A stretch of 5,700 bases of DNA, from the NCBI GenBank assembly GCA_947304085.1, contig CAMZAC010000049.1, positions 1-5,700 on the forward strand. The letters run 5' to 3'. Below are positions 807-5,700 of the stretch, one piece after another. The translations under genes were made by a program, and so were the position numbers. The stretch comes from an uncultured Alphaproteobacteria bacterium. Lineage in GTDB: Bacteria; Pseudomonadota; Alphaproteobacteria; Rs-D84. A model generated the notes under the pieces. The model worked only from the letters and a program-made list of their open reading frames with translations. It searched no databases and had not been told where the DNA came from. Each line of letters begins with the position of its first letter. Within the stretch, counting starts at the first letter, position 1.

Positions 807-837
807 AAAAAATATTTTTTGCCAAGTTATATGCCAA
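807..837 (-). promoter_or_regulatory. AT-rich palindrome and TTGGCA direct repeat upstream of the B promoter
   Basis: Right before the -35 box lies a perfect 14-base palindrome (six A, TA, six T) at 807-820. It partly overlaps two direct copies of TTGGCA on the minus strand (837-832 and 825-820) that are 12 bases apart. The position suits an UP element or a regulator site. The AT tract could also be chance in an AT-rich genome. Confidence 0.3.
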
Positions 838-859
838 AAAAACAGGGCGACTGCCCTGC
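836..859 (-). terminator. Rho-independent terminator (leftward)
   Basis: The inverted repeat CAGGGC / GCCCTG (843-848 and 853-858) with a four-base loop is followed on the minus strand by seven T. It ends the leftward unit that contains the M23, zincin and chimeric genes and insulates the B-A operon. It lies 17 bp past the remnant M23 stop at 876-878, so it was probably the terminator of the ancestral M23 gene (inference). On the plus strand the tail is weak. Confidence 0.8.
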
Positions 860-875
860 TTTTACATTGAAAAAA

Positions 876-1057
876 CTATAATCTTACAATTTGTTTTAGA
901 TTTGTTTTCAAAGATTCTATGTATGGGCGTACAACGTTTCGTATGTTCCATTATGACGTATTTTTACAAAATTACCATGTCCGCGATTGAAACTGCGCGC
1001 AACAACGCGTCCTGCACCAGCCGCTGGAATTGGTGTTCCAGTAGAAGCGCGAAAATC
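876..1057 (-). pseudogene. Partial duplicate of the M23 peptidase 3' end
   Basis: Two blocks match the intact gene at 3014-4315. Positions 922-1057 correspond to 3286-3421 (codons for D299 to H343 of the intact protein), and 876-921 correspond to 3014-3059 (the last 14 codons and stop). The 226 bp between these blocks in the intact gene (3060-3285) are missing, which breaks the frame. In its own frame the tail would still read IESLKTN then L instead of P, ending ...IVRL and TAG. The missing part includes the HLH zinc ligands, and the copy starts after the first ligand histidine, so it cannot be a working peptidase. The upper block is nevertheless read in frame as the C-terminal half of the chimeric gene at 917-1204. 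Confidence 0.9.
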
Positions 1058-1204
1058 CAAAATATCGTGCAAACCTGTAACATTTTCTAAAATTAATATG
1101 TCTGCACCGGTAGCGCCTTTCATTTCTGATAAATCAGCACCATCTATTTTGGCCAACTTGTCACCATGAAAATCAACTACCCAAACATAATTTTGTTTTA
1201 CCAT
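917..1204 (-). CDS. Chimeric ORF: family copy C N-terminus fused to an M23 core fragment
   Basis: A 95-codon frame. Residues 1-49 are the third member of the small solenoid-like family (VVDFHG at 9-14, GADLSEM at 22-28, LILENVTGLHD at 37-47). Residues 50-94 are identical to residues 299-343 of the M23 peptidase encoded at 3014-4315. The junction is at a shared Asp codon near 1055-1057, where both parents read GAT. Just after the M23 block a 226-bp deletion throws the frame into Thr and TAG. The fragment keeps the Asp of HxxxD and the His of LYAH but lacks the other metal ligands, so no peptidase activity is expected. The site AAAAGG precedes the ATG and a promoter lies at 1252-1280, so the gene may well be expressed. 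It could be a decaying copy-C gene or a new fusion protein; the all-synonymous divergence leaves this open. Confidence 0.7.
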   Translation of the reverse strand: MVKQNYVWVVDFHGDKLAKIDGADLSEMKGATGADILILENVTGLHDILDFRASTGTPIPAAGAGRVVARSFNRGHGNFVKIRHNGTYETLYAHT

Positions 1205-1251: not shown

Positions 1252-1280
1252 ATCTTAGACAATCGCCGTATAAAAATCAA
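1252..1280 (-). promoter_or_regulatory. Probable promoter of the chimeric gene
   Basis: On the minus strand TTGATT (1280-1275) and TAAGAT (1257-1252) are 17 bases apart. The -35 hexamer and spacing are the same as in front of copy B, and a short T run follows in both. The -35 box overlaps the stop codon of the 569-codon gene. The -10 match is only four of six, so read-through from upstream may contribute. No terminator is visible between the two genes. Confidence 0.45.
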
Positions 1281-2986
1281 TTCAATCTAGAATCTTTGCC
1301 AACAAATGTGAGATTGTTTTTTCTATTTAATTTGTTTGTGACCTGTTTCAGAGTATGTTTTTTTGTTGATGTCAGAAACATTCTTACACCATCTGGAACA
1401 TTATCTGATTCATTATATTCAGATAATAATTTATCTTTCAAATTTTCCAAAAATTTACTTCCAGCAACTTCGCCAACTCTGTGTGCCATGTTTTCATTAG
1501 GATTAAGAAATCTGTAATCAAATTCTGATTCATTGTTGATGGACAACAGTTCTTGAACTAACTTATCAAATTCCGATTTTGAATCTAAAGATAGTATTTT
1601 TTGGTCATCCCGACCATCCAATGCACGAAAACCACCATATTTAACCCCGTTGTTATTTTCCGTAGGAATTTGAATTATTGTATCCACAATCAAATTTTCT
1701 TTACCTTTGAAAATAGTAAATTCTGGATTATGAGAAATCAGATGATGTTCTAATTCATGAAAAAATGCCAATGCCGCATCATTAAAATTCTTATGTTGAT
1801 GAAGTGTCCGACGATTTCCCAATAAATCCACTCTGATATTCTTTGTTTTACTTGAAATATTTATAACATCTTCATGTGAACTGTTTCCAGTAGCACCAAA
1901 ATTGACCACTGGCAGATTGTTAATACCTGGATAAGCCCTTTTTACAAATTCATTAAAAAATGCTTGCTGTTTATCATAACTTTTTTTATCCCAGTTTTTA
2001 ATGATATTTGCATACTTGGCACCATCATGTTCGTCTTTTAACATGTCTGCAACCACCCCCAGATACTTGTCTTTGATCTTATAAGCATGTTTCAAAATTG
2101 CTTCTTGACCACCAAGTTCTTTCATAATGGCACGTTCAATAGCGATATGTCTGTTTCTGAGCAACTGATTAAATTCTGTATTAGATTTCACTTTATCTGC
2201 ATCATCTAAAAATTTTTTATTAATAGTTTGAATTTCTTTTGAATATTTTGACATATTACCATCAGTTAGATAAACCGTATTATACCGAGCACGCAATTCG
2301 GCATCTCTTCTTAATACCAATGCCGCCTGATTTCTAAAACTATCTTCTGTAACAAATGCACCAGATTCATAACCAACTATTTTTTTACCTCTGTATTCTG
2401 ACTTGTCCGCTACAACAAAATTAAGTTCGGCAGGTTTGGCTGTTCCATCAACAAACCGATCCAATATTTTCTCTTGCAAACGATATTGAGCCTCTAATAA
2501 CAACTGATGCTTCGCCCTTTTACAAACTTTATTAAAATCTGCATATTCTTTTGCATTTTTTAAATATGCATATGTTTTAAGCATTTCTATATTGCCAGAT
2601 TGACAAATTGATTCAATATGCTCAACCGCTACGGCACGCAAATAATCACAAACACGAACCAATTCACGACGAAATTCATTTGGAACTTTGCCGGCATCAA
2701 ATTCATAAATATCTTCACCACGTGCAAAAGTCGTCTTGGTCCATTCTGGTAAATCAGAACGTGTTTTGTCTATCTTTACGAAACATGCTTGATTTGCCAG
2801 ATTTACATTTGTACGAATTCTTAATTTGAAATATTGAAACACAATATTGTTTGCAATCGCATCTATATTTTCACGTACTGTTTCAACACTGTCAACCCTG
2901 ATAATTGTTGGAGTGCCGCCGTTATAAACCAAATTTTGTAAATACCTGTTTAATGATTTTTCTTCCAAAAAATTTATGACAGCCAT
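1277..2986 (-). CDS. Uncharacterised protein with HELEH zincin motif, possible metallopeptidase effector
   Basis: A 569-residue protein that I do not recognise as a named family. The visible signature is LAFFHELEHHLISH at about residues 406-419, a HEXXH zinc site on a predicted helix (H410, E411, H414). It is preceded by a strand-like stretch, IRVDLLGN near 384-391, as in many zincins. About 84 residues later NPNENMAHRVGE (495-506) offers E498 as a possible third ligand, in the style of the NPxExxA helix of gluzin-like peptidases. Residues 1-380 are mostly helical and charged, with no signal peptide or membrane segment, and the C-terminus is basic. The gene looks more AT-rich than prmC or the M23 gene. 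It starts 27 bp after the M23 stop with a strong AAAGGAG site, so it is probably co-transcribed with M23. A secreted effector, toxin or phage-type polyvalent protease are all possible; this is inference. Confidence 0.8.
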   Translation of the reverse strand: MAVINFLEEKSLNRYLQNLVYNGGTPTIIRVDSVETVRENIDAIANNIVFQYFKLRIRTNVNLANQACFVKIDKTRSDLPEWTKTTFARGEDIYEFDAGKVPNEFRRELVRVCDYLRAVAVEHIESICQSGNIEMLKTYAYLKNAKEYADFNKVCKRAKHQLLLEAQYRLQEKILDRFVDGTAKPAELNFVVADKSEYRGKKIVGYESGAFVTEDSFRNQAALVLRRDAELRARYNTVYLTDGNMSKYSKEIQTINKKFLDDADKVKSNTEFNQLLRNRHIAIERAIMKELGGQEAILKHAYKIKDKYLGVVADMLKDEHDGAKYANIIKNWDKKSYDKQQAFFNEFVKRAYPGINNLPVVNFGATGNSSHEDVINISSKTKNIRVDLLGNRRTLHQHKNFNDAALAFFHELEHHLISHNPEFTIFKGKENLIVDTIIQIPTENNNGVKYGGFRALDGRDDQKILSLDSKSEFDKLVQELLSINNESEFDYRFLNPNENMAHRVGEVAGSKFLENLKDKLLSEYNESDNVPDGVRMFLTSTKKHTLKQVTNKLNRKNNLTFVGKDSRLN

Positions 2987-3013: not shown

Positions 3014-4315
3014 TTATAATCGCATAATTTGTTTTGGATTTGTTTTCAAAGATTCTATGACAGCATTTAATTTATCTTTGTGCTCTAAAAACACTTTCTT
3101 GTTCGCCGCATCCAGATTATTTATTGCCGGCAATTTCACAGTCATCGGATTTACGTGCTGACCATTTTTAATAATTTCGTAATGTAAGTGTGGCCCCGTA
3201 GACAGACCTGTCGAACCAACATAACCAATTGTTTGCCCCTGACGCACAACAGTCCCGACATTTACCCCTTTTGCAAATCTGGACATATGCGCATACAACG
3301 TTTCGTATGTTCCATTATGACGTATTTTTACAAAATTACCATGTCCGCGATTAAAGCTACGCGCAACAACACGCCCTGCCCCAGCCGCTGGAATTGGCGT
3401 TCCAGTAGAAGCACGAAAATCAACACCTTTGTGTGCGCGTGTAAAGCCCAACACAGGATGTTTTCTGCGTGTTGAAAAACTAGATGTCACTTTTGCATTG
3501 TTTATTGGTGTTCGTTTTAACGATTTAATTGCGCCATTACCATTTTCATCATAATAACCAACCCCACCATCAGACCGAACAAAACGATACATTTGGACAT
3601 TACCACGCAAAGCCTCGAATGAAACAGCAATCACGCGCCCATTATCAACCTTTTTATCAGACGCATAATTTTCTTCGTATAAAACAAAGAAATGTTGCCC
3701 CGCACGCACATCACGTTCAAAGTCCATTTCGAACGCCAACAAATCATAAACGTCTGCCAATATTCCCGCCGGTATTCCAGCACGCATCCCGGCCAGATAA
3801 AAACTGTCCCCGTCCAAGATTTCGCCCTCTTTATAGGCGACACGTGTATCACGTTCAATCACAACCTTTTGACACTGCCAATCGCCAGTTTCGCCACAAC
3901 TGATTTCAACACGTTGCCATGGTCCATTTAAAATTACAACCTTGGAAACAGGTTTATCTTCGGATGGTTTAACAAATTCAATTTTATCAGAGCCTGCACG
4001 TAAAGTTGTAAAATCAGCGTCTTTCTTTAATGTTTTTGAAATTGTATCTATATCACGTATGGAAAAACCCTGACCAGAAAAAATCTTGGACAAAGTATCG
4101 CCAGATTTAACTTCTATAACCGTTTTAATTTCAGATGGGGCAAACACAGCATCACGTGCAGGTTTATAGAAAACCAATACACCAAACGCAACAACTATCA
4201 TAACCACCGCAACCCACAATACAATACGCGACAATACATTTATATCACGCGCTTTCTTACAAGATTTTGCCAAGCCGACATTAATCTTTCTGATAATATA
4301 TTTTGCTTTTTTCAT
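3014..4315 (-). CDS. Membrane-anchored M23 peptidoglycan endopeptidase (MepM/YebA-like)
   Basis: A 433-residue protein, close to the roughly 440 residues of E. coli MepM, which cleaves peptide cross-links in murein to allow wall growth. A basic N-terminus is followed by one transmembrane anchor at about 31-49, placing the rest in the periplasm. A LysM/OapA-like region (VIEVKSGDTLSKIFSGQG) lies at about 67-84. The C-terminal LytM domain has all catalytic signatures: HKGVD with H295 and D299, LYAH with H343, and GPHLHYE with H376 and H378. The start at 4315 is preferred over an in-frame ATG at 4351. The upstream one would overlap prmC and lie upstream of the -10 box, whereas 4315 sits one base after the predicted transcript start. 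It is divergent from prmC and followed by the zincin gene. Part of its LytM sequence recurs at 922-1057. Without biochemical data, amidase versus endopeptidase specificity is inferred from the architecture. Confidence 0.93.
   Translation of the reverse strand: MKKAKYIIRKINVGLAKSCKKARDINVLSRIVLWVAVVMIVVAFGVLVFYKPARDAVFAPSEIKTVIEVKSGDTLSKIFSGQGFSIRDIDTISKTLKKDADFTTLRAGSDKIEFVKPSEDKPVSKVVILNGPWQRVEISCGETGDWQCQKVVIERDTRVAYKEGEILDGDSFYLAGMRAGIPAGILADVYDLLAFEMDFERDVRAGQHFFVLYEENYASDKKVDNGRVIAVSFEALRGNVQMYRFVRSDGGVGYYDENGNGAIKSLKRTPINNAKVTSSFSTRRKHPVLGFTRAHKGVDFRASTGTPIPAAGAGRVVARSFNRGHGNFVKIRHNGTYETLYAHMSRFAKGVNVGTVVRQGQTIGYVGSTGLSTGPHLHYEIIKNGQHVNPMTVKLPAINNLDAANKKVFLEHKDKLNAVIESLKTNPKQIMRL
3286..3421 (-). 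repeat. Source segment of the M23 duplication (pairs with 922-1057)
   Basis: This part of the intact peptidase gene matches 922-1057 with ten differences and no gaps. Every difference is at a third codon position. A block of 59 bases (3294-3352, matching 930-988) is identical, while eight of the ten changes fall in the next 70 or so bases. The gene's last 46 bases (3014-3059) also recur, at 876-921, but there they include amino-acid changes. Confidence 0.9.
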
Positions 4316-5141: not shown

Positions 5142-5700
5142 TTATATGCCTCTATATTTTCTTTTAAACAAAACCTCTCTCATTCGTTTTTGTTCTCTTT
5201 TCTTATCTTGAAACTTTTTCCGAGCCAGTTGTGCTTCGAGTTCGACAATTTTTTGTTCTTGCTGTAGTAAATCTACGATATCTTTGTGCTCATTTATAGC
5301 CGCCCACATCAATGCTGTACGACCATAATTATCTGTTATATTTTTATATGCACCGGCTTTAATAAGCGATTTTACGATATCTGTGTGACCGTTTTTAGCC
5401 GCCAACATCAATGCTGTACAACCATCATTATCTGTTATATCTAATTTTGCACCGGCTGTAATCAGCGAATCTACGATGTCTTTGTCACCGTTTTCAGCCG
5501 CCAACATCAATGCTGTACAACCATCATTACATTTTATATCTTTATCTGCACCGGCTTTAATCAGCGAATCTACGATGTCTTTGCGATTATTCAGCGCCGC
5601 CCACATCAATGCTGTACGACCACAATTATCTTTTATATCTTTATCTGCACCGGCTGTAATCAGCGAATCTACGATGTCTTTGTCACCGTTTTCAGCCGCC
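5142..5700 (-). CDS. Ankyrin-repeat protein (N-terminus beyond window)
   Basis: The frame stays open to the window edge at 5700, giving 185 visible residues. The ATG at 5609 is the Met of a repeat (TALMWAA), not a start. Four complete 33-residue ankyrin repeats are visible, each with the pattern DNxGxTALMxAAxNGxxDIVxSLIxAGA, plus parts of one more at each end. Ankyrin stacks bind other proteins. In symbiotic and parasitic bacteria such proteins are often effectors delivered to the host cell, but nothing here proves secretion. The last 40 or so residues are a highly charged, Lys/Arg-rich helix (QQEQKIVELEAQLARKK), probably a short coiled coil. The gene converges on prmC, with the shared terminator at 5109-5132 between. 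The promoter and N-terminus are not in the window. Confidence 0.93.
   Translation of the reverse strand, partial: AAENGDKDIVDSLITAGADKDIKDNCGRTALMWAALNNRKDIVDSLIKAGADKDIKCNDGCTALMLAAENGDKDIVDSLITAGAKLDITDNDGCTALMLAAKNGHTDIVKSLIKAGAYKNITDNYGRTALMWAAINEHKDIVDLLQQEQKIVELEAQLARKKFQDKKREQKRMREVLFKRKYRGI
5299..5700 (-). repeat. Tandem 99-bp ankyrin-coding repeats
   Basis: Units begin at 5299, 5398, 5497 and 5596, with the start of the next at 5695, at an exact 99-base period (33 codons). Identity is very high at DNA level. The 55 bases at 5448-5502 are the same as 5646-5700, two units apart, which points to recent expansion or gene conversion. The 5299 unit, nearest the C-terminus, is the most diverged. 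Confidence 0.95.

Follow-up and report, generated by a model that had tools for sequence, protein, structure and literature searches.

What kind of object is an open reading frame (ORF) that runs in frame from the start of one gene into part of another: a new gene, or something that recombination has left behind? The question is raised by a chimeric ORF in the DNA analysed here (the window), which is one whole contig of 5,700 bp from a draft genome of 636 kb (99 contigs, 68.8% complete). The initial annotation described the ORF as an in-frame fusion of a small protein with part of an M23 peptidase, and a 95-aa ORF running from ATG to TAG at 917-1204 on the minus strand was confirmed. We consider it probable that this ORF, made of the first 49-52 codons of a small-protein gene and of an M23 remnant, is a non-functional and decaying by-product of recombination at the 3' flank of the M23 gene. 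The features of the locus are collected in Table 1.

Table 1. Coordinates of the chimeric ORF, its parts and its neighbours in the window.
Feature	Position	Strand	Remark
Second small-family paralogue, 128 aa, to contig end	2..385	-	
Small-family paralogue, intact, 110 aa	399..731	-	
Intrinsic terminator	836..858	-	Stem CAGGGC/GCCCTG, then seven T
Remnant, last 45 bp of M23 gene, IVRL-stop type	877..921	-	
Chimeric ORF, 95 aa	917..1204	-	ATG 1202-1204, TAG 917-919
Inner joint, 226 bp of M23 absent (= 3060-3285)	921..922	.	Makes Thr95 and TAG end
Residues 50-94, M23 core piece, 45 codons	923..1057	-	Against intact M23: 10 synonymous, 0 nonsynonymous
Joint GATTTTCGCG, residues 50-52 DFR	1048..1057	-	Encodable by either parent
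Residues 1-49, from small repeat-protein gene	1058..1204	-	W8 in place of nearly invariant G
569-aa protein, HELEH at residue 410, between intact M23 and chimera	1277..2986	-	
Intact M23 peptidase, ShyA/MepM-like architecture, fragment's parent family	3014..4315	-	

Both parentages claimed for the ORF were borne out. Residues 50-94 are identical to 45 residues of the M23 peptidase encoded at 3014-4315 on the minus strand; the blastn match (136 bp, 92.6% identity, E 8.7e-55) is far above chance level, and Pfam recognised the fragment as PF01551 with E 9e-12. Residues 1-49 belong to the local family of small repeat proteins, with 57% identity to the 110-aa neighbour across residues 2-52. The nearest relatives of this N-terminal part are P0021 (77% over 52 residues) and P0025 (71%), both of which read LDFRG, and no intact direct parent of residues 1-49 closer than these 77% was found.

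The small family comprises 20 proteins at E <= 1e-3 (from 562 candidates out of 5.8 billion proteins), one of which is P0001, treated below; the other 19 are 110-164 aa long, and longer proteins were not among the candidates. Matches to the family were found in 25 of 156 genomes of the genus. The full-length stand-alone form occurs in only three (the window's genome, G065 and G076), the remaining matches being partial and situated within longer frames. The 110-aa paralogue was modeled with repeated strands and a C-terminal helix (pLDDT 89), and a PDB fold search with it gave no match at E <= 0.001. NCBIfam has no family for either small protein or for the 569-aa protein. In Pfam, too, the 110-aa protein and the 569-aa protein are without a family, and the 128-aa protein gave only a sub-threshold pentapeptide match (E 0.034). 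Set against a family body of about 110-165 aa with beta repeats and a C-terminal part, the chimera corresponds in residues 1-52 alone; nothing in it answers to the later strands or to the C-terminal helix that the 110-aa model shows. The poor model of the chimera (mean pLDDT 55, with 42-51 in the M23 half, as against 89 for the paralogue) would be expected of an unfolded tail, or of too few related sequences.

The expression signals of the ORF are weaker than first annotated. What had been taken for its own ribosome site is AAGG with a 6-nt spacer to the ATG, and the supposedly plausible promoter is weak: the stretch 700-1700 contains five promoter-like sites, where shuffled sequence has 4.4 (sd 2.3), and the 72-nt gap ahead of the ORF has no such site on the minus strand. 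The best site in that scan (11 of 12 matches; 1441-1412, minus strand) falls within the 569-aa gene, about 210 nt upstream of the ORF. At the other end the terminator region 830-880 folds with -17.9 kcal/mol (z -4.28); one scan listed the stem on the plus strand. An in-frame ORF with a start codon, a weak ribosome site, an upstream promoter-like site and a strong terminator downstream is also what would be seen if the chimera were a selected new gene, in which a truncated M23 core, carried on a repeat module, serves to bind peptidoglycan or to interfere with the intact enzyme; we return to this possibility when the remaining evidence on it has been given.

The joint had been assigned to a single GAT codon present in both parents, which has to be amended to the whole DFR motif. 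At this position M23 reads GVDFRA and the nearest small-gene relatives LDFRG, and DFR is found there in 8 of the 21 family rows other than the fusion, so that residues 50-52 could derive from either parent. The G065 gene and the window's M23 have GATTTTCGTG (10 nt) in common at the joint, where the chimera has GATTTTCGCG. We infer that this short stretch common to both fits illegitimate recombination.

Just downstream of the ORF the stretch 877-921, which is absent from the initial annotation, aligns with the final 45 bp of the M23 gene (91%, E 1.6e-13). Owing to this tail piece, the remnant can be recognised as the 3' end of M23 with a gap of 226 bp (3060-3285), and the stop codon of the ORF was created at the inner joint. 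The second parent is a gapped 3' part of an M23 gene, not a neat domain.

Since the 45-bp M23 tail occurs twice, site-specific insertion with target duplication was considered. This was rejected on the ground that the tail copy adjoins another 136 bp, from the inner part of M23; in addition, no recombinase was named by Pfam or NCBIfam among the window proteins scanned. Integration linked to a tRNA was rejected as well, there being no tRNA within the 5,700-bp window.

Little of a working peptidase is left in the fragment. It covers profile positions 3-51 of the 96 in PF01551, short of most of the domain, and has just the D and the LYAH histidine of the HxxxD and HxH ligand set of a working M23. 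The ligand positions were taken from the sequence, with the intact M23 aligned to ShyA. The statement that most zinc ligands are missing holds for the first histidine and the HLH motif, which are gone, and has to be qualified for the HxxxD aspartate and the LYAH histidine, which are kept; by the roles that we take the HxxxD and HxH residues to have in zinc binding, one of three ligands is left. The chimera thus resembles M23 enzymes of the ShyA/ShyC/MepM type in 45 residues of the catalytic core, including the aspartate ligand and the LYAH histidine, but unlike them it has neither the first histidine ligand nor the HLH motif nor the remaining domains, and zinc binding of the M23 kind would not be expected of it.

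Comparison of the fragment with the intact M23 shows where this half may have come from. They differ at 10 of 135 bases; all 10 differences are synonymous and no amino acid is changed. When polarised with G064, the sole outgroup and nearest species found (M23 94% identical in protein), six changes fall on the fragment branch and four on the M23 branch, and the same synonymous sites are also variable among 19 further relatives. In the absence of selection, six random changes would all be synonymous with P 2.6e-4 to 6.3e-4, depending on transition bias. The fragment must accordingly have been in a working M23 for most of its divergence, or be under selection now, or have undergone gene conversion. 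The last is possible in view of a run of about 60 nt without a difference: between 922-1057 and 3286-3421 this run is identical, with differences on either side of it.

The first of the three options is favoured by the allele type of the tail, and for most of its divergence the fragment was probably part of a working M23. The fragment tail ...ATTGTAAGATTATAG resembles ...ATTGTAAGGTTGTAA of G064 (GTAAG type), whereas the tail of the window's intact M23, ...ATTATGCGATTATAA, resembles ...ATTATGCGATTGTAA of G065 (ATGCG type). G064 is free of the island; G065 bears it, with a homologue of the 569-aa gene directly behind M23. Outside the last ~40 nt the M23 3' end exhibits no clear likeness to G065 or G076, so the evidence for an allele swap is short and made up of few bases. 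On the other hand, the fragment and the window's M23 have states in common that are absent from G064 (S instead of P, GCT, ACG), which means that the two alleles are closer to each other than to G064.

These shared states, and the location of both copies on the same contig, in the same orientation and 2.4 kb apart, are what would be seen if the M23 piece were a partial tandem duplicate of its neighbour in the same genome, which lost 226 bp and became joined to the small gene. A free copy should gather amino acid changes, however, and all six changes on its branch are synonymous; moreover, its tail is of the G064 type, unlike that of the neighbour. We therefore regard tandem duplication as unlikely. 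The view that the ORF was built from neighbouring genes is not quite right, given that the differences are synonymous only, six of the ten lie on the fragment branch and the tail is of the other type; judging from the base differences, the M23 part most likely came from a diverged M23 allele and is not a plain copy of the neighbour.

The surroundings of M23 genes in the genus were surveyed as well. Among the best 80 of 453 named M23 relatives, a 68-aa membrane gene or enolase follows within 700 nt behind M23 in 17 loci and other genes intervene in six (L094, L095, L105, L109, L111 and L113), while these downstream genes were not seen in the available sequence of 48 and nine end too soon. The intervening gene sets differ: L109 and L111 have one long gene in common, and the other four loci differ from these two and, except for the small gene of L094 and L095, among themselves in the frames listed. 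The M23 3' flank is apparently an insertion-prone site with variable cargo. When the 6 kb downstream was searched at the six cargo loci, five contained no M23 remnant; a 20-nt antisense match in L094 (E 0.002) was read as chance, and none of the six has anything like the remnant in the window.

Exchange of parts may have occurred in the cargo too. The N-terminal ~165 residues of the 569-aa protein recur in G007, G014, G025, G029, G037 and G041, and weakly in G010 and G024; its complete relatives have this domain in front and a repeat domain instead of the C-terminal half, so that the protein looks like a member of a family with exchangeable ends, possibly secreted. Two of six relatives of the 569-aa protein that were examined (L030 and L031, out of L026-L031) have the same type of N-terminal domain followed by C-terminal small-family repeats. 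As these repeats match the stand-alone small family, they link the window's two neighbours. G065 has the order M23, 560-aa homologue, intact small gene, which may be compared with an unfused state, the direct parent not having been found (nearest 77%). Its small gene starts ~1.8 kb after the end of M23, and that of G076 ~2.6 kb after it; the chimera starts 1.8 kb after it.

The following history would account for the locus. One chromosome would have carried M23, the 569-aa gene and the small gene. On another, which lacked the 569-aa gene, a terminator and more small genes would have come after a diverged M23 allele. Through illegitimate recombination, in the form of an unequal exchange at the DFR codons common to both (GATTTTCG...), the small gene would have become linked to the second M23, with the resulting order M23, 569-aa gene, small::M23', M23 tail, terminator, small, small. 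A loss of 226 bp inside the M23 remnant, simultaneous or later, would have set the present position of the stop codon. As expected for fusion ORFs born of recombination or deletion, the chimera consists of the start of one gene and part of another. A by-product history of this kind is favoured by the two M23 pieces lying in order and in the same orientation right behind the small-gene piece, by the purely synonymous changes on both branches (six on that of the fragment and four on that of M23) together with the G064-type tail, and by the occurrence of DFR in 8 of the 21 rows, including the two nearest relatives, and of cargo in 6 of the best 80 of 453 loci. Against it, the donor chromosome and the DNA of P0001 were looked for and not found, and the polarisation of the changes rests on one outgroup.

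Further evidence was obtained by searching for the junction in other genomes, as suggested in the initial annotation, and in proteins. Positions 860-1204 were matched in 119 of 156 genus genomes, with four candidates scored in each, and outside the window's genome no match among these spans both parents. What they cover is either small-gene sequence, the M23 part or the M23 tail, and the longest of them extend across the joint by only ~23 nt (G156 and G117). In the protein collection 12 proteins match the chimera (of 15 candidates), and just one, P0001, has the junction. P0001 (77 aa, from a contig of 1,231 nt) has G at residue 8 and is out of frame after residue 74 (..FNRRTW, stop). A search of viral contigs with the chimera returned six pattern stretches, none of which encodes a relative, and plasmid and phage collections queried in distant mode with 860-1204 gave no match.

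P0001 bears on two readings at once. It places the joint outside the window's contig as well, and it disfavours the assembly error that had been named as a reason for doubt. If the junction were an assembly chimera of two metagenome strains, a fragmented draft genome and the involvement of two M23 alleles would be in keeping with it; but the identity at the joint, about 8-10 nt, appears to be far under assembly word sizes, and P0001 has the same junction on its own contig with a substitution and a frame change absent from the window. We give this reading the slightest chance of those considered, albeit P0001 may be from the same sample as the window.

In P0001, moreover, the M23 part has lost its frame: the only other sequence with the junction (n = 1) has a disrupted frame, which had likewise been named as a reason for doubt, unless its frame break is a sequencing error, as it may be. 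Residue 8 is W in the window's own copy and G in 22 of the 23 aligned family rows. The broken frame, W8 and the low pLDDT of the fusion again favour a by-product. The absence of any amino acid change in 45 codons despite 10 synonymous differences speaks for a selected new gene, as a purely synonymous divergence would be compatible with selection acting on the chimera itself, too. This reading is opposed by the frame break in P0001 and W8 in the window's copy, by the single zinc ligand left of three and the low-confidence fold, and by the joint being found in no other of the 156 genus genomes with four candidates scored in each. We therefore consider a selected gene very unlikely. Still harder to credit would be a newborn gene that acted as a decoy for or brake on the adjacent M23, was selected in the window's lineage and was lost by frameshift in a sister strain. 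Among binding, dominant interference and no role, all three of which had been left open, the last is best supported, by the P0001 frameshift, the lost glycine and the pLDDT of 42-51 in the M23 half, and a function of the chimera is unlikely.

Objects of this kind are already known, both as fusion ORFs that are by-products of structural change (PMC12803068) and as short ORFs that are gene remains (PMC2447293, PMC2374718). In the deletion-born fusion genes described by Kaul et al. (preprint, PMC12803068), a structural change fuses the start of one ORF with the end part of another, and the new ORF spreads first as a by-product; signs of selection are reported at some positions of one fusion, whereas a clear new beneficial function was, according to the authors, not identified. 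The chimera is likewise the start of one ORF joined to part of another. It differs in that the fusions of that preprint arose by deletion and are compared with a split ancestor of the same lineage, whereas here there is no split ancestor to compare with, and the remnant is from a diverged M23 allele, presumably by unequal exchange. The orphan ORFs of Rickettsia, according to 'The Journey to smORFland' (PMC2447293) and a pseudogene study (PMC2374718), are fragments of degraded full-length genes. The chimera resembles them as a short ORF in a reduced alphaproteobacterial genome that appears to be a leftover of duplication or transfer and not a working gene, but unlike these gene remains it is an in-frame joint of two unrelated families.

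The locus shows cleanly, and in a natural setting, how cargo that varies behind a conserved gene can give rise to an in-frame chimeric ORF; the common short motif, the tail of the remnant and two copies, each changed in its own way, can all be seen. There is a warning in it as well, in that a perfect match at the protein level can conceal another allele: as the synonymous sites indicate, the neighbour cannot simply be taken for the donor. On new function the chimera tells little.

The best 80 of the 453 named M23 relatives are from metagenome genomes, mostly titled Alphaproteobacteria or proteobacteria and from animal guts, and include that of Candidatus Enterousia merdequi (76%). Enterousia, of the order Rs-D84, has been described from farm animals as a gut lineage whose genomes are reduced (PMC12306168), and the window DNA appears to belong to this genus. 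Literature searches on the genus and on chimeric or orphan genes gave no paper about the locus among those listed. Relatives of the two small neighbours of the chimera are P0013 and P0029; the longest contig is 2,348 nt for both, and the pair at 2-385 and 399-731 may for this reason be conserved as a unit. At the opposite end of the window, 5142-5700 on the minus strand encodes an ankyrin-repeat protein with a 99-nt period, which runs past the contig end.
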